A DNA stretch of 64,000 nt from Nakazawaea peltata (taxonomy: Eukaryota; Ascomycota; Pichiomycetes; Alaninales; Pachysolenaceae), in NCBI GenBank assembly GCA_001599355.1, contig BCGQ01000006.1, forward strand, positions 124,001 through 188,000, read 5' to 3'. Numbering within the stretch: position 1 is the stretch's first letter; each line of letters begins with the position of its first letter. Made by a program: the position numbers and the translations under genes. Under the pieces are notes generated by a model that saw nothing but the letters and a program-made list of their open reading frames with translations, had not been told where the DNA came from and did no database searches. Shown one piece after another: positions 34,285-53,713 of the stretch.

Positions 34285-35770
34285 ATGTCTGCTTTAGCTG
34301 CCTTCAGAATCCATGCTCGCCCAGCGGCCATGAGAATTAGCCAGTAAGTAACCGCCCATGCCATCCCGTGGTATTTGCTGCTTAAAATCATTAGACTAAC
34401 GTTATTTTTATAGATACCAAAGATTGTCTTTGACTGCTTTGAACTTGGCCAGAACTTATGCTGGTAAATCTTTCCCACCTCACACTGTTATTAACATGCC
34501 TGCATTGTCCCCAACCATGACTCAAGGTAACATTGTCTCTTGGAGCAAGAGCGTTGGTGACCAATTGGAGCCAGGAGAAGCCATTGCCGAGATCGAGACC
34601 GACAAGGCTTCTATGGATTTCGAATTCCAAGAAGATGGTTACTTGGCTAAGATTATTTTGGACGGTGGTGCCAAGGATATTCCTGTAGGAAAGCCAATTG
34701 CTGTTTACGTTGAGAATGCTGAGGATGTTCCAGCCTTTGAATCTTTCACTGCCGAGGATGCTGGTGAAGCCGGTGCTGCTCCAGCTGCCACCGAGGCTGC
34801 TCCAGAAAAGACTGCCGATGCTCCAGCTGCTCCAGCTTCTTCTTCTGCTCCAGCCTCCTCTGGTTCTTCCAAGTCTGCTCCAGCTCCAACTGACAGAATC
34901 ATTGCTTCTCCATTGGCCAAGACTTTGGCTTTGGAGAAAGGTATCTCTTTGAAGCAAGTCAAGGGATCCGGACCAAACGGTAGAATTGTCGCCAAGGATG
35001 TCGAGAACTTCAAGGCCCCAGCTGCTGCTCCAGCTAAGGCTGCTCCAGCTTCTACTCCAGCTGCCGCCTCTTTCGAAGACGTTGAAATCACCTCCATGAG
35101 AAGAACTATCGGTAGAAGATTATTGGAATCTACCCAAAACTTACCAACTTACATTGTTTCTTCTTCTGTTTCTGTTTCTAAGTTATTGAAATTGAGAGCT
35201 TCTTTGAACTCCACTGCCGATGAACGTTACAAGTTGTCTGTCAATGACTTGATGATCAAGGCCATTGCTCTTGCTGCTAAGAGATTCCCATCTGTTAACT
35301 CTGCTTGGTTAGAAAACGAGGGTGTCATCAGACAATACAACAATGTCGATGTTTCTGTTGCCGTTGCTACCCCAACTGGTTTGATTACTCCAATTGTCAA
35401 GAGTGCCGAATCCAAGGGTTTGATCGATATCTCTAAGGAGATCAAGGACTTGGGTAAGCGTGCTAAGGAGAACAAGTTGAAGCCAGAAGAGTTCACCGGT
35501 GGTACTATCACCATCTCTAACTTGGGTATGAACCCAGCTGTCAGCTTATTCACATCTATCATTAACCCACCTCATTCTGCTATCATTGCCATTGCTACCG
35601 TTCAAAAGGTTGCTGTTGAAGACAAGGCCAGTCCAAATGGTATTTCCTTCGATTCCAGAATTAACTTGACCGGTACTTTCGACCACAGAACTGTTGATGG
35701 TGCTATGGGAGGTGAATTCATGAAGGAAGTTAAGAGAATTATTGAGAATCCTTTGGAATTCTTGCTTTAG
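34285..35770 (+). CDS. LAT1: Dihydrolipoyl acetyltransferase, E2 of pyruvate dehydrogenase (spliced)
   Basis: Exons 34285-34343 and 34414-35770 give 471 residues; the 70-nt intron (34344-34413) has GTAAGT and GACTAAC before TTTTTATAG. Exon 1 supplies the mitochondrial presequence (MSALAAFRIHARPAAMR). The lipoyl domain has ETDKASMDFE with the lipoyl lysine at residue 84. An Ala/Pro-rich linker leads to the E1/E3-binding domain (IIASPLAKTLALE to GPNGRIVAKDV) and a catalytic domain ending in FDHRTVDGA with the active His. No CTG codon occurs in the gene, a sign of high expression. Forms the PDH core in the mitochondrial matrix. Confidence 0.96.
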
Positions 35771-38290: not shown

Positions 38291-41200
38291 ATGAAATTGG
38301 TTATCAACGACAAAACAAGAGTCATTGCTCTTATCTCAAATGACCACGTCTTACTATTGCATTCAGATGATCAAAAAGTCCAAATCGAATTGATCCACCG
38401 TGATAGTTTTAACCCCCTGCACTATAAGCCTTTATCTCAACGGTTCTCCAAGATTCATGGTTTCATCGGACTCATTAAAGTTAATGATGGCATATTTTTA
38501 GGTACCATCACGGAAAAAGCCGAAGTCGCCTCGCCTCTCCCAAAAGAGACCGTCAATAAGATTCTCGGCGTCGAATTCCACTGCTTAAATAAAGATACGT
38601 GGGATTTCTTAGATATAGATGCCAATGGGTACCCAAGTATACACAACGAGACGGCCACCGACACGGAAAATCTCCCAGGTCAAATCCAACAAGGTGTAGA
38701 TCAGCAATATGAGCAACATCCATGCTATGAGTTAAGAAAATTGTTGTCTAATGGGTCCTTCTATTACAGTTCGAACTTCGATCTCACCACGAACCTTCAA
38801 AAGAGAGGAGTCGGGGCCAATTCTTTGAGTTTCGACAAATTCGAGCAAGAATATATGTGGAATCACTTCATGATGGACGAAATCATCACTTTCAGGAACA
38901 GGTTGGGGACTCTGCAGAAGGAACTGTTGGATGACAATGGGTTCTTGACTACTGTGATCAGAGGTTTCGCCGAAAGTTTCCAATCTCATATCAAATCGTT
39001 GAAGACCAGAATCACCATTGTCTCGAGACAATCTTGTAGAAGAGCAGGTACCAGATTCAATGCTAGAGGTATGGATGATGATGGTAATGTAGCCAATTTC
39101 GTAGAAACTGAGTTCATTTTATACTCGGCCAAAGTAGTTTATTCTTTCACAGAGATAAGAGGTTCGGTGCCTATATTTTGGGAACAGGATACTGCTCTTA
39201 TTAATCCGAAAGTGACGGTGACGAGGTCCAAAGAAGCCACCCAACCGGTTTTCAACAAACATTTCCAGACATTGTTGCTGAAGTATAGCTCAGTCCATGT
39301 AGTCAATTTATTGTCTACTAAAGCTAATGAGATCGAGTTGACTAAAAGATACAGAGCTCATATAAAGACATTACATGAAACAACAAACGATGTTTTGTTG
39401 ACAGAGTTCGATTTCCATCATGAAGCTGGTAAGAATTTCGAGATGGCTGGTAAAATTGTCCCATTATTGAAGGACTCGATTGAGAATTTCAACTATTTCG
39501 CTTATGATATGACTAATAAAGAAGTTATTAGTGAACAAGTTGGTACTTTCCGTACTAATTGTTTAGATTGTTTGGATAGAACCAATGTTATTCAACAAGT
39601 GATCTCTTCAGCTATGTTGAATCTCTTCTTTAAAGACAACAACATCCCAACTAGTTATGATATGGATATCTTAGTCAAGCACAACACTTTATGGGCCGAT
39701 CATGGTGATGCTATAAGTCAAATTTACACCGGTACTAATGCATTGAAGTCGTCGTTCTCCAGAAATGGAAAGATGGGTTTCGCCGGTTTGTTATCGGACG
39801 CTACCAAGTCCGTCAGTAGAATGTACATTAACAATTTCGTAGACAAGAGTAAGCAACAGACAATTGATATGTTATTGGGTAAATTAGAAGGGCAAGTCCC
39901 AGTCCAAGTTTATGATCCTCTCAATGATTACGTTTTAGAGGAGTTGAATAAAAGATCGGGTGACTTCACTACTTATGGAAATATAGTATTATTCACAGGG
40001 ACATATAATTTGGCCGGAACTAGTAGAGTTGGTGATTTAACAGATTGGTTATTCCCAGCAGAGAATGGAGGTGCTCAATTCAGTCCAGACTTGATTGTCT
40101 TGGGATTCCAAGAAGTTGTAGAACTCAATGCTGGTAATATTTTGAATTCAGATAAATCTCAATCGGTTTATTGGCAAAAATTAGTATTAGACCAATTAAA
40201 TTCAACCTCAAGTCATCAATATATAATGTTAAGACTGGAACAGATGGCTTCGTTGATGTTGCTTTTCTTTGTTAGAAGTGATAAGATTGGGAATATCAAG
40301 CAAGTAGAAGGAGCTACTAAGAAGACAGGTTTAGGAGGGATGACTGCTAATAAGGGAGCTGTAGCTATTAGATTTGATTATGGAGAATCTTCATTCTGTG
40401 TAGTTGATTGTCATTTAGCTGCTGGTATGACCAATGTTCTGGAAAGATTCAATGACTTCAATACTATCATGAACGGTACTACTTTCAGTAGAGGAAAGAA
40501 GATTAAAGATCATGATTCGATTATTTGGTTGGGAGATTTGAATTTCAGAATCAATTTGGAGAATGAGATGGTGAGATCGGCTATTGAGCAACGTCAATTC
40601 AACAAATTGATCCAACATGATCAATTGAAACTGGAAATGAATACTAAAGGTGCTTTTAAACAGTTCAATGAGATGGCTATTGATTTTAAGCCTACTTATA
40701 AGTATGACAAGGGGACTAATACCTACGATACTTCAGAGAAACAAAGAGTTCCTTCATGGACTGATAGAATTTTGTATTATGGCCGTAATTTGAGTCAATT
40801 GAATTATAATAGTGTTGATAGTGTGATGTTTTCTGACCACAAACCTGTTTTCGGAACTTTTGAAAGTACTGTTCAATTCATTGATCAAGTTTTGAGACAC
40901 AAATATAAAGATGAGTTATACAATCAATTTAAGCAGAGTCATAAGGATGAGGGGAGCTCATTAATTGATTTAGATGATTCATATTCGTCCAATTCACCTG
41001 TTTCTCAGAATATTTCTTCGTCGAGTCGTTCATCTACTCCGGCTTCTTTCAATCCACCGTTACCGGTAAGGTCTCAGACCCAGCAACAATTAGTGACACC
41101 TGCTCTGTCCCTGCCCCTGCCCCCACTGCCTAGACGTCGTCAAGCTACTGCCACCCCAGACCCTCCATCTTTACCTACAAGACCTACTCAGATGGATACT

Positions 41201-41503
41201 TTAAAACTGCCAGCTCCTCCACAACCAAGAAAAGCTGTTCAAACTCCTATTGGATTCTCTACAGTGGCTTTAGTACCTAACAGATCATCGTCTTCAACTC
41301 CAATTCCATCTCCTCCACCAAGACAATCTACTTTTGGTTCAATTTCTACTGAAAACCAACCCCAAAAGACTGCCCCAATGGTACCAAAGAAACCCTCAAC
41401 TTTATCAAATTTCTCTGTCTCGGAGCCTGAAAGATCAGTAAGTCCTAGCCTGCAGCAATTTGCCTCTAGTATAGATCAATGGGAACCTTTGAAGCCAAAA
41501 TAA
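38291..41503 (+). CDS. Synaptojanin-type polyphosphoinositide phosphatase (Inp52/Inp53-like)
   Basis: 1070 residues from the ATG at 38291 (MKLVINDKTRVIAL). The Sac1 domain, about residues 1-510, keeps the catalytic CLDCLDRTN (about 424-432), so it should be active as in Inp52/Inp53, unlike Inp51. The 5-phosphatase domain (about 560-880) has TGTYNLAG, WLGDLNFRIN, VPSWTDRIL and SDHKPVFGTF. The tail (about 900-1070) is Pro-rich and Ser-rich. The enzyme removes phosphates from PI(4,5)P2 at endocytic actin patches. CTG in YIMLR-x-EQM stands where relatives have Ser or Ala. The CTG-rich part of the tail loses Leu under the alanine code. Confidence 0.9.
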   Translation: MKLVINDKTRVIALISNDHVLLLHSDDQKVQIELIHRDSFNPLHYKPLSQRFSKIHGFIGLIKVNDGIFLGTITEKAEVASPLPKETVNKILGVEFHCLNKDTWDFLDIDANGYPSIHNETATDTENLPGQIQQGVDQQYEQHPCYELRKLLSNGSFYYSSNFDLTTNLQKRGVGANSLSFDKFEQEYMWNHFMMDEIITFRNRLGTLQKELLDDNGFLTTVIRGFAESFQSHIKSLKTRITIVSRQSCRRAGTRFNARGMDDDGNVANFVETEFILYSAKVVYSFTEIRGSVPIFWEQDTALINPKVTVTRSKEATQPVFNKHFQTLLLKYSSVHVVNLLSTKANEIELTKRYRAHIKTLHETTNDVLLTEFDFHHEAGKNFEMAGKIVPLLKDSIENFNYFAYDMTNKEVISEQVGTFRTNCLDCLDRTNVIQQVISSAMLNLFFKDNNIPTSYDMDILVKHNTLWADHGDAISQIYTGTNALKSSFSRNGKMGFAGLLSDATKSVSRMYINNFVDKSKQQTIDMLLGKLEGQVPVQVYDPLNDYVLEELNKRSGDFTTYGNIVLFTGTYNLAGTSRVGDLTDWLFPAENGGAQFSPDLIVLGFQEVVELNAGNILNSDKSQSVYWQKLVLDQLNSTSSHQYIMLRLEQMASLMLLFFVRSDKIGNIKQVEGATKKTGLGGMTANKGAVAIRFDYGESSFCVVDCHLAAGMTNVLERFNDFNTIMNGTTFSRGKKIKDHDSIIWLGDLNFRINLENEMVRSAIEQRQFNKLIQHDQLKLEMNTKGAFKQFNEMAIDFKPTYKYDKGTNTYDTSEKQRVPSWTDRILYYGRNLSQLNYNSVDSVMFSDHKPVFGTFESTVQFIDQVLRHKYKDELYNQFKQSHKDEGSSLIDLDDSYSSNSPVSQNISSSSRSSTPASFNPPLPVRSQTQQQLVTPALSLPLPPLPRRRQATATPDPPSLPTRPTQMDTLKLPAPPQPRKAVQTPIGFSTVALVPNRSSSSTPIPSPPPRQSTFGSISTENQPQKTAPMVPKKPSTLSNFSVSEPERSVSPSLQQFASSIDQWEPLKPK

Positions 41504-45309: not shown

Positions 45310-46968
45310 ATGTCGAACAATATCCCATTCCCAAAGGCAGTCGACGCCTTGAGCAATGTTGAAATCAAGGGGGTTATCCATGACGAAAGAATTAAGAGCC
45401 AAATTTTGAACCTGGAGCTGTTGGCATTTGTGGCCACTTTGCACCGTACTTTTAACAAGCAAAGATTAGGTTTGTTGGAGAACCGTAAAAAGTACCAAAG
45501 AGAAAGGGATCTGGGAAAATTACCAGATTTTCTTCCAGAGACCAAATATATCAGAGATGATAAAACTTGGGTTGGGGCTAAATTAGCCCCAGGATTAGTC
45601 GACAGACGTGTTGAAATTACGGGACCTACCGACCGTAAGATGGTGATCAATGCTTTGAATTCGAAAGTTGCCACTTACATGGCAGATTTCGAAGACTCAT
45701 TGACCCCAACTTGGTACAATGTGATTGATGGTCAATTGAATCTTTATGATCTGGTGCGTAAGCAGATCAAGTTGGTCACTCCTAAGAAAACTTACCAATT
45801 GAGTGGTAAACATACTCCAACTTTGATTGTCAGACCAAGAGGTTGGCATTTGACTGAAAATCATTTCATCGTTGATGGTGAACCGGTCAGTGGCTCATTA
45901 TTTGACTTTGGATTGTATTTTTTCAATAATGCCAAAGAGACATTGAAGCAAGGCTTTGGTCCTTATTTCTATTTGCCAAAAATGGAACATCATTTAGAAG
46001 CCAAATTATGGAATGATGTCTTTGAGTTTGCTCAGGACTACATTGGAATTGACCGTGGAACTATCAGAGGTACTGTATTGATTGAGACCATACCAGCTGT
46101 TTTCCAAATGGATGAGATTATTTATCAATTACGTCCTCATATTGCTGGATTGAACTGTGGTCGTTGGGATTATCTCTTCAGTTATATCAAATGTTTCAGA
46201 CAAAACAAGAACTTTATTTTACCGGACCGCGCACAAGTCAACATGAAGGTTCCATTTATGGCTAACTATGTCAAGTTATTAATTAAGACATGTCACTCCA
46301 GAAAAGTACATGCTATGGGAGGAATGGCTCTGTTGATTCCAATCAAGAATGACCCTGAACTGAATCTGAAGCTGATGGACAGTGTCAAGAGTGACAAATT
46401 AAGAGAAGTCACTGCAGGCCATGACGGAACTTGGATCGCTCACCCTCTGTTACTGGATATTTCTTTGGATATTTTCAACAAGCACATGCCAGGGAAAAAT
46501 CAAATCAATGTGTCTCGTTACGAGGATTTACAAGTGACCAACTTTGATTTATTGACACCATTTGTCGATGGTGGAGCCATCACCGACGCCGGTGTCAGGG
46601 TAAATATCAGAGTCGGACTCATCTACATTGCTAACTGGTTGAAAGGTATTGGATGTTCTCCAATCAATTGGTTGATGGAAGACGCAGCTACAGCGGAAGT
46701 TTCAAGATCCCAATTGAATCATTGGTTCAAACATGGAATCGTCACTCAAGAAGGTTACAAAATAGATGCAGCTTATTTGAATAAGCTGTTGAAAGAAGAA
46801 GGAGCCAAACTTCAAAAAGATTTCGACTCTCGTATCTTGAATAAGACGATCAAATATTACCAAAAACAAATCTTGGATCACAAATTCGACGATTTCTTGA
46901 CCTTGGAAATGTATGATGAGTATTGTAAAGCTGACACTACCAGGTCCATTTCTGCCACCAAATTATAA
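45310..46968 (+). CDS. MLS1: Malate synthase (glyoxylate cycle)
   Basis: 552 residues, condenses glyoxylate with acetyl-CoA. Near-identical family blocks: [73 protein letters not shown] and [16 protein letters not shown]. At least seven CTG codons stand on alanines of S. cerevisiae Mls1, including NLYD-A-(V/I)R, GMA-A, and HP-A-L-A. The protein ends ATKL: TKL is a weaker form of the SKL-type peroxisomal signal found on most yeast malate synthases, so import may be partial or depend on a partner. A TATA box precedes the gene, as expected for a strongly regulated glyoxylate gene. Confidence 0.95.
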
Positions 46969-50464: not shown

Positions 50465-51655
50465 ATGGAATTCGATAGAGAACTGGACCTGGAATTGTCT
50501 TTCAAGACTTCCAAAAAAGTACCTATTGTGTCATCGTTTGAAGAACTAAATTTAAAACCAAACTTATTGAAAGGTATCTATAACTATGGATTCGAAGCGC
50601 CATCGGCGATCCAATCTAGAGCCATATTACAGATCATTAGTGGGAGAGATACCATCCTGCAAGCCCAGTCCGGTACAGGTAAGACTGCTACGTTCACTAT
50701 TGGAGCTTTAGAGGTGTTGGATTCTTCAATGAAAGATTTACAAGTATTGGTCTTATCACCTACTAGAGAATTACTGGTGCAGATAGAGAAAGTGGTGAAG
50801 AACCTCGGTGATTACATGAATATCCAATGTCATGCTTGTATTGGAGGTACCAATTTGAAGGAGGATTTGAAGAAATTACAGAAAGGTCAGCAAGTCATCA
50901 GTGGTACCCCTGGAAGAGTATTAGATTTAATCAAGAGACAAAATTTGAACTTGAGAAATGTTAAGATGTTAATTATGGATGAACTGGACGAGTTATTATC
51001 AAAAGGTTTCAAGGAACAGATATATGAGATCTACAAATATTTACCTGGGAAGACTCAGATTGTCGTGGTTAGTGCCACTTTACCCAGAGAGGTGTTGGAG
51101 ATGACCAGGAAATTCACGGTGGATGCTGTCAAGATTTTAGTGAAAAGAGACGAGATCTCCTTGGACGTCATTAAACAATTCTATGTGAATGTAGAGAAGG
51201 AAGAATGGAAGTTCGATACATTGTGTGATCTATATGACTCTTTGACCATCACCCAACTGATTATATTCTGTAATACAAAGAAGAAAGTGGATTGGTTGCA
51301 GAAGAAATTGACCGAATCAAATTTCACAGTGGTTCTGATGCATGGAGATATGAAACAAGAAGAAAGAGATAAAGTTATGAGCGAGTTCAGATTAGGAAAT
51401 TCTCGTATCCTTATAAGTACCGATGTTTGGGCCCGTGGTATCGATGTTCAACAAGTTTCCTTAGTCATCAATTACGATCTTCCTTACGATCGTGAGATGT
51501 ATATTCATAGAATTGGTCGTTCCGGTAGATTCGGTAGAAAAGGTGTACTGATCAACTTCATCACCAAAGATGATATGGAAGAGTTACATAACTTACAAAA
51601 ATATTATAGCATTAAGATTCGTGAAATGCCTGCAAATGTGAATGATTTATTATGA
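50465..51655 (+). CDS. FAL1: DEAD-box RNA helicase Fal1 (eIF4A-III family)
   Basis: 396 residues (S. cerevisiae 399). Nucleolar helicase for 40S biogenesis, activated by Sgd1 (encoded at 5158). Motifs: QAQSGTGKT (I), PTREL (Ia), GTPGR (Ib), the DEAD box itself at residues 172-175 (codons GAT GAA CTG GAC), SAT (III), [10 protein letters not shown] (V) and HRIGRSGR (VI). Six CTG codons all fall on alanines invariant in the family: before QAQSG (50657), PTREL-A-VQI (50774), DE-A-D (50984), TITQ-A-IIF (51257), TVV-A-MHGD (51335) and KGV-A-INF (51548). Its stop codon overlaps that of the convergent gene at 51650 by a few bases. Confidence 0.96.
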
Positions 51656-52327: not shown

Positions 52328-53713
52328 TTATTTCTTCTTTTGAGAAGTGGAGTTCTTTGGTAATTCTTTTACGAATGGGATGAATTCTGGATCACCTGGA
52401 ATGTACTTTCTCAAGACTTCTGGAATCTTCAAACCATCTTCGGTTTGATAGTTCTCCAAAATACAACACAAAGCTCTTTCAGTAGCACACAAAGTAGAGT
52501 TCAAACAGTGAACGTATTTCTTCTCTCTTTGGTTAGCGGTCTTGATACCACATCTGATCTCCAAGTTTCTGGATTGATAATCGGTACAGTTAGAACATGA
52601 GACCAACTCCTTGAATTCTTGTTGGAATGGGAACCAAGCTTCCAAATCGTATTTCTTAGCAGCAGCATTGTTCAATTCACCACTGACAATACCAACGACT
52701 CTGTATGGTAATCCCAAAGATTGGTAGAACTCTTCACTTAATCCGATCATTCTGTCGAACTCATCCCAGGACTTTTCTGGCTCGGTGATACAGAATTGTT
52801 CAATCTTCTCGAAAGCATGGACTCTGAAGATACCCCAAGCATCCTTACCGTGGGAACCGGCCTCTCTTCTGAAACAAGAAGAGTAACCGGCGTATCTGAC
52901 AGGTAATTGTTCGGATGGTTTTTCGAACCATTCACCAGAGTGATAAGCACTGATTGGTTGTTCAGAGGTGGCAATAAGATACTTCTCATCATCACCATCG
53001 ATGACCTTGTATAATTCCTCATCGAATTGAGATAATTGAGCAGTCTTGGCCATGACGTCCTTGTTCATCATGACTGGGGCTTGCAATGGAGTGTAACCTC
53101 CCTTACCGGCCAAGAAGTGCAATCCGTAGTTGATAAGAGCTTGGTTCAAGAAGACACCGTATTGTCTCAAGAAATAACCTCTGTGACCAACGATCTTAAC
53201 ACCACGTTCTGGGTCATAACCGTCCAATCTCAACAAGACCTCGTGATGAGACAACTTAGCTGGAGCACCAGTGGCAGTGGCAACATTGGTGATAGTCTTG
53301 ATATCGTAACCTTCTGGAGCCCAAGTTCTGACCAAATCATTGTTGTCCTCGTTATCACTGACAACAACCGATGGGTGAATAATGTTACCCACCAAGTTAA
53401 CCTTAGCCTTAAGCAGTTGATCGGCTTCTTGTTCTTTGGCGGTCAACTCCAGCTTCTTCTTAGCGATCTCATCCTTCTTCAGTAACAATTCAGTGGCATC
53501 TTCCTTGGCCTTGAATTTCAAACCAATCAGTTTTTGAACAGAGTTTTGCTCCTTGTTCAAAGCGTCCAAATCAAATCTAATCTTGGTCCACTCTTTGTAG
53601 TCGGCGATAATCTCATCGACAAGCTCTACAGAGTCACCTCTGGCCTTTTGAGAGGTCTTAATCAATTCAGGGTTACCTCCTTTCTCTTCGATGAACTGAG
53701 TGATATCCAACAT
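52328..53713 (-). CDS. SES1: Cytosolic seryl-tRNA synthetase
   Basis: 461 residues. The N-terminal coiled-coil arm (about 1-115) begins MLDITQFIEEKGGNPELI. The class II core has motif 2 (SSCFRREAGSHGKDAWGIFR), the serine-site TSEQPISAYHSGEW, and motif 3 near the GTERALCC-like ATERALCCILENYQ block. The C-terminal extension ends NSTSQKKK, as in yeast. Two CTG codons are in the coiled-coil arm at positions where S. cerevisiae has Lys and Asp, not Leu. In CUG-reassigned yeasts the serine enzyme is of interest because tRNA-Ser(CAG) serves the CUG-Ser clades, but nothing here suggests an odd enzyme. Confidence 0.95.
   Translation of the reverse strand: MLDITQFIEEKGGNPELIKTSQKARGDSVELVDEIIADYKEWTKIRFDLDALNKEQNSVQKLIGLKFKAKEDATELLLKKDEIAKKKLELTAKEQEADQLLKAKVNLVGNIIHPSVVVSDNEDNNDLVRTWAPEGYDIKTITNVATATGAPAKLSHHEVLLRLDGYDPERGVKIVGHRGYFLRQYGVFLNQALINYGLHFLAGKGGYTPLQAPVMMNKDVMAKTAQLSQFDEELYKVIDGDDEKYLIATSEQPISAYHSGEWFEKPSEQLPVRYAGYSSCFRREAGSHGKDAWGIFRVHAFEKIEQFCITEPEKSWDEFDRMIGLSEEFYQSLGLPYRVVGIVSGELNNAAAKKYDLEAWFPFQQEFKELVSCSNCTDYQSRNLEIRCGIKTANQREKKYVHCLNSTLCATERALCCILENYQTEDGLKIPEVLRKYIPGDPEFIPFVKELPKNSTSQKKK

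Follow-up and report, generated by a model that had tools for sequence, protein, structure and literature searches.

CTG at the alanine of a FAL1 DEAD box and an alanine-type tRNA(CAG) point to the CUG-alanine code in a Nakazawaea genome

The window, a stretch of 64,000 nucleotides from a contig of Nakazawaea peltata, contains a gene for a FAL1/eIF4A-III-type DEAD-box helicase with eight CTG codons (codons 7, 9, 65, 104, 174, 265, 291 and 362; Table 1). Its product aligns over nearly its full length with eIF4A-III/FAL1 proteins, the best solved relative being DDX48 (E about 1e-179, residues 9-396 of 396), and carries both helicase domains, PF00270 (DEAD, 162.2 bits) and PF00271 (Helicase_C, 130 bits). 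These two domains and the end-to-end similarity to eIF4A-III assign the protein to the FAL1/eIF4A-III family, and the open frame agrees with an earlier sequence-only reading that had described the gene as intact. Two further genes of the window, encoding malate synthase and a synaptojanin-type phosphatase, were included to read the meaning of CTG.

Table 1 FAL1, its helicase-core CTG codons and the two additional test genes (positions in the window)
Feature	Position	Strand	Description
FAL1/eIF4A-III-type DEAD-box helicase	50465-51655	+	396 aa, intact ORF; 8 CTG codons
FAL1 codon 65, CTG	50657-50659	+	Ala directly before QAQSGTGKT; A113 of 113 rows (invariant)
FAL1 codon 104, CTG	50774-50776	+	Ala of PTRELA; A112 L1 of 113 rows
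FAL1 codon 174, CTG	50984-50986	+	DEAD-box Ala, third residue; A112 L1 of 113 rows
FAL1 codon 265, CTG	51257-51259	+	Ala of TQAIIFCNT; A104 S7 G2 of 113 rows
FAL1 codon 291, CTG	51335-51337	+	Ala/Ser before MHGDM; A79 S34 of 113 rows
FAL1 codon 362, CTG	51548-51550	+	Ala of RKGVAINF; A112 S1 of 113 rows
Malate synthase	45310-46968	+	552 aa; independent test of CTG meaning, with 11 CTG codons
Synaptojanin-type inositol phosphatase (INP5x)	38291-41503	+	13 CTG codons; third test gene

Residues at the CTG codons were counted in alignments in which CTG was read as X, made with 120 (malate synthase), 114 (FAL1) and 119 (synaptojanin) homologues, that is, 120 listed per protein and then filtered by length. 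The row of the closest relative was excluded from the pooled counts, leaving 119, 113 and 118 rows, respectively. The FAL1 residue counts of Table 1 come from 113 of the 120 rows listed, after a length filter, and the single leucine at codons 104 and 174 belongs to that relative. Alanine was the commonest residue at all six CTG columns of the helicase core. The sequence-only reading had placed all six at invariant or nearly invariant alanines; this holds for five of them (92-100% alanine), among which are the alanine of PTRELA and that of the DEAD box, written Asp-Glu-CTG-Asp as it had proposed, but not for codon 291, where alanine makes up 70% and serine 30%. Codons 7 and 9 lie in the variable N-terminus, where leucine was the commonest residue at codon 7 (L53 A14 Q12 of 111 rows) and asparagine at codon 9 (N37 K27 A17 of 112 rows).

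Over the three proteins there were 32 CTG columns, one of which was dropped as too gappy, so that 31 were scored. Twelve were conserved at 60% or above, eleven for alanine, one for leucine and none for serine; at 90% or above there were nine (eight alanine, one leucine). The whole signal comes from FAL1, with six alanine columns, and malate synthase, with five alanine columns and one leucine column among its 11 CTG codons; a further malate synthase column, codon 382, fell just below the cut at 59.7% alanine. Synaptojanin was picked as an adverse test because its Pfam scores leaned towards serine, and its CTG columns, of which none reached 60% conservation, were variable (Q, N, I, D, V, S, L and P being the residues most often seen) and decide nothing. 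As controls at the same 60% threshold, TTA/TTG codons fell on leucine in 99 of 123 conserved columns and on alanine in one (synaptojanin codon 500), CTT/CTC/CTA codons on leucine in 14 of 17, GCN codons on alanine in 39 of 54, and serine codons on serine in 50 of 71 and on alanine in three. Chance is ruled out by the pooled test, since CTG stood on alanine in 11 of 12 columns versus one of 123 for TTA/TTG (Fisher P 3e-14; 3e-10 versus serine codons). The one exception, malate synthase codon 493 (46786-46788), is a CTG at a 92% leucine column, which represents either an ordinary leucine-to-alanine change, a relic, or an ambiguous site.

Ten of the 26 main open reading frames that contain CTG were used to compare Pfam domain scores with CTG read as alanine, leucine or serine. 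Summed over these proteins, the alanine reading scored highest (4595.5 bits), followed by serine (4557.1) and leucine (4499.6). Alanine exceeded leucine in every protein (+95.9 bits) and serine in eight of the ten (+38.4 bits); serine was ahead in synaptojanin (by 1.5 bits) and Nup84 (by 0.2), and came within 1 bit of alanine in Nrap and seryl-tRNA synthetase. Single domains that favoured leucine over alanine include MS_C (2.9 bits) and RF-1 (0.2 bits). Minor or overlapping families were kept outside the sums: ResIII (30.4 bits with alanine, 30.6 with leucine, unlisted with serine), AAA_30 (listed under the alanine reading only) and DUF6919 (37.0, 35.7 and 36.6 bits with alanine, leucine and serine). 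The seryl-tRNA synthetase gene (52328-53713; domain scores 223.3, 222.5 and 215.9 bits with alanine, serine and leucine) is located on the opposite strand, some 0.7 kb downstream of FAL1.

No tRNA gene was found in the window by ARAGORN run without introns. A pattern search of the assembly for anticodon CAG plus a B box gave 14 places (eight for the backward control), and in one of these, outside the window, ARAGORN recognized a CAG tRNA (G000:C4:81426-81498, equal to L008:1469-1541), which it labels leucine because the program follows the standard code. By DNA search the gene is present in a single copy in the assembly. Against Rfam RF00005 it scored 50.9 bits (E 2e-10; gathering score 29) in permissive mode; in gathering mode it was unlisted, with no matches, presumably due to the fast filters. 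The tRNA has G3:U70, A73, A35 and G37, and its variable region of five bases forms no long variable arm, a structure unlike that of leucine and serine tRNAs. Alanine identity in tRNAs is determined mainly by the pair G3:U70. In a comparison of 26 distinct class I tRNA rows from this genome, a set without the Lys, Trp, Phe, His, Ile and Tyr isotypes, G:T at 3:70 was confined to Ala(AGC), Ala(TGC) and tRNA(CAG). Thus, the search of the assembly that the sequence-only reading had proposed, for a CAG-anticodon tRNA with alanine identity, yielded one that qualifies by its sequence features. A T6-T67 mismatch was read by eye; folded by itself to minimum energy, the tRNA gave no cloverleaf and was not better than shuffles (z 0.15).

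Leucine tRNAs with anticodons CAA, TAA, AAG and TAG and serine tRNAs with AGA, CGA, GCT and TGA were found, and no class II tRNA with CAG was seen among 17 exact class II A-box matches and the other loci examined. One A-box match, labelled Val(cac) by ARAGORN, was interpreted as a Leu(CAA) gene with an intron. Fourteen of the 70 matches with one mismatch were read beyond the printed match; one of the fourteen, C2:1271236, is not a tRNA. Most A-box matches are attributable to chance, because the backward pattern gave 158 versus the 87 found. A relaxed class I pattern gave 52 matches (control 25); ARAGORN without introns detected no tRNA in the 30 that were cut out, and 21 of the remaining 22 were read as the printed match only. 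A class II pattern gave 80 matches (control 72). On visual inspection of the strings as printed, one of these is Leu(AAG), and a further three, all the same, resemble a tRNA-Tyr with an intron. The tRNA family search listed 63 matches of 608 candidates, and the CAG tRNA is not among the matches listed. Within these non-exhaustive pattern searches, a tRNA-Leu(CAG) is likely absent from the assembly.

The tRNA-Leu(UAG) gene also lies outside the window (G000:C4:804518-804725; L009:1490-1697, minus strand, also in L027). It contains a 120-nt intron after base 37, predicted without a shuffle control to form a strong hairpin (-37.9 kcal/mol). In a different clade, the tRNA-Leu(CAG) introns of 134-318 nt are described in one report as the largest known of the canonical kind (PMC5951914). 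A literature search on long tRNA introns in CUG-Ala yeasts returned nothing relevant among the matches listed, and a long intron in a possible CUG competitor of such a yeast is worth a look.

As regards its origin, tRNA(CAG) as a whole has 50 matches to tRNA-Val(UAC) and 49 to tRNA-Ala(AGC). Its inner half (D and anticodon arms) is closest to Val(UAC) with 24 matches, followed by Gln(UUG) with 23 and Ala(AGC) with 17, and its outer half (acceptor stem, variable region and T arm) has 32 matches to Ala(AGC) and 26 to Val(UAC). Such a pattern might suggest a mosaic, or a tRNA-Val(UAC) with an acquired alanine acceptor stem, instead of the anticodon-changed tRNA-Ala that has been published for the clade, and CUG would then have been captured through an identity switch or gene conversion. 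Sites shared only with Ala or only with Val do cluster by arm (Fisher P 0.027, with paired stem sites that are not independent). In a calibration with 21 of the 26 class I rows (near-duplicates and an initiator make up the other five), however, inner versus outer discordance was 8/6 for Val(tac), 9/5 for Pro and 7/7 for Thr(cgt), compared with 7/6 for tRNA(CAG). Because stem sites are not independent and equally discordant tRNAs are common in this genome, a mosaic origin is not claimed, and we regard it as improbable.

The sequence-only reading had also named the Pachysolen group, as the one with this code. Among the 120 homologues listed per protein, the best organism-named matches were from Pachysolen tannophilus (malate synthase 71%, synaptojanin 68% identity). 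A closer relative was present among the matches listed (malate synthase 81%, synaptojanin 74%, FAL1 86% identity); the 120 homologues listed included no Pachysolen FAL1, and none of the matches listed was identical to a protein of the window. Trees were built with CTG columns excluded and taxa hand-picked from the listings (22 for synaptojanin, 17 for malate synthase). In both, the window, the close relative and Pachysolen tannophilus were split from the rest, with ultrafast bootstrap support of 100% (synaptojanin) and 99% (malate synthase). The two trees support membership of the Pachysolen/Nakazawaea/Peterozyma clade, for which Pachysolen is the member sampled by name; in the NCBI taxonomy, Pachysolen and Nakazawaea belong to the Pachysolenaceae, order Alaninales.

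The closest relative (proteins P0127 and P0006, with the source tag lgn, which probably stands for Logan) has leucine at FAL1 positions 104 and 174, the latter in the DEAD box, and at malate synthase positions 37, 351 and 382. All five are CTG in the window and alanine in most other homologues. It has leucine also at four further alanine, near-alanine or leucine columns. At the five positions the standard code was probably applied to CTG codons; drawn from the protein sequences, this reading is only suggestive in view of the four further columns.

Taken together, the conserved columns (11 of 12 alanine), the summed Pfam scores and the CAG tRNA with alanine features support the earlier proposal that CUG means alanine, and the nuclear genome of this yeast almost certainly follows NCBI table 26, in which CUG encodes alanine. 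With CUG most likely read in this way, the FAL1 DEAD box is intact. In the proposed mechanism, CUG would be paired by the anticodon CAG of the single tRNA gene found. Alanyl-tRNA synthetase should charge this tRNA regardless of its anticodon, because G3:U70 and A73 are located in the acceptor stem, and alanine would be put in at CUG. CTG codons would in this way have come to occupy sites that require alanine, including the DEAD box of FAL1. The other CUN codons would be served by tRNA-Leu(AAG), read as IAG by wobble rules, together with tRNA-Leu(UAG), whose wobble pairing could bring it into competition at CUG.

That competition, or weak charging of the CAG tRNA by leucyl-tRNA synthetase, could make CUG ambiguous, mainly alanine with minor leucine. 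The tRNA-Leu(UAG) gene is present, one CTG falls on a leucine column (malate synthase codon 493), and the CAG tRNA has A35 and G37; in a passage of one study G37 is held responsible for 3% leucine mischarging in Candida albicans (PMC5951914). Saccharomyces, according to the same source, reads CUG by a tRNA-Leu(UAG) that lacks its former U34 modification (PMC5951914). Eleven of the 12 conserved CTG columns being alanine speaks against ambiguity in the present genome. Minor leucine at CUG is possible but unlikely, because Pachysolen CUG is stated, in the part of a later report consulted, to be unambiguously alanine (> 99%), and the earlier figure of 10% leucine to have been a mistake arising from de novo peptide sequencing (PMC8645108).

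A serine meaning, as in the Candida or Saccharomycopsis clades, might be read from the Pfam comparison, in which serine beats leucine overall and rivals or slightly passes alanine in four proteins; yet alanine leads across the ten proteins, none of the 12 conserved columns is serine while ordinary serine codons mostly fall on serine, and the CAG tRNA is without the long variable arm that serine tRNAs have. The columns, the Pfam scores and the tRNA all led to rejection of this reading, and we consider it barely credible. The usual leucine meaning, with FAL1 as a variant or decayed helicase carrying a DELD box, can be dismissed with near certainty on the same three lines, for its support is confined to codon 493 of malate synthase and the variable codon 7 of FAL1, while alanine outscores leucine in all ten proteins, CTG occupies invariant or nearly invariant alanines in two unrelated enzymes, no tRNA-Leu(CAG) was found in the tRNA search hits read, and decay was rejected on the intact FAL1 frame and the same pattern in malate synthase.

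Reassignment of sense codons in nuclear genomes is very rare, and to our knowledge CUG as alanine is known from one yeast clade only. The genome studied here agrees with that clade (table 26) in its CTG codons at conserved alanine columns, its CAG tRNA with alanine features and its grouping with Pachysolen tannophilus; no essential difference was seen, the case here being known from sequence alone. With the CUG-Ser1 code (Candida albicans, table 12) it shares a reassigned CUG and a CAG-anticodon tRNA with G37. The tRNA(CAG) of that clade is, in contrast, serine-type with a long variable arm, and its CUG means serine, whereas here the tRNA is alanine-type and CTG stands on alanine columns, with none of the 12 conserved columns serine. 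The CUG-Ser2 yeasts (Ascoidea, Saccharomycopsis) likewise have a reassigned CUG; as described in part of one report, they possess a tRNA-Ser(CAG) with A37 and mostly also a retained tRNA-Leu(CAG) (PMC5951914), neither of which was seen here. Decoding of CUG as alanine was described in 2016 in Pachysolen tannophilus, and Nakazawaea and Peterozyma were added to the clade in 2018 (PMC5951914, PMC11415595); the paper that publishes the clade as CUG-Ala used mass spectrometry (PMC5951914). The present genome is an expected member of this published clade, and the rare code it uses is already known, not new.

Codon use was counted in 30 main open reading frames of the 39 listed in the window, nine overlapping or unconvincing ones having been dropped. 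CTG makes up 210 of their 15,215 codons and, if it means alanine, 210 of 998 alanine codons. It is densest in a WH2-domain protein (229-2181; 32 CTG of 650 codons), which we take to be verprolin-like. A dihydrolipoyl acyltransferase-like gene (34496-35770) has 60 GCN codons but lacks CTG altogether (P 7e-7 given the average CTG share in the window, for a gene picked after the fact from the 30 frames), and CTG may therefore be avoided in some genes. Three more frames without CTG have few alanine codons (0/24, 0/11 and 0/9; chance 0.003, 0.07 and 0.12).

Table 26 is the code to use for translating the proteins of this genome; the standard one would introduce false leucine at about 14 codons per thousand and make FAL1 look broken, an error that the database protein P0127 of the close relative seems to show in its own DEAD box. 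The assembly (11.6 Mb in 11 contigs) provides a further genome in which ambiguity, codon turnover and tRNA competition can be measured.
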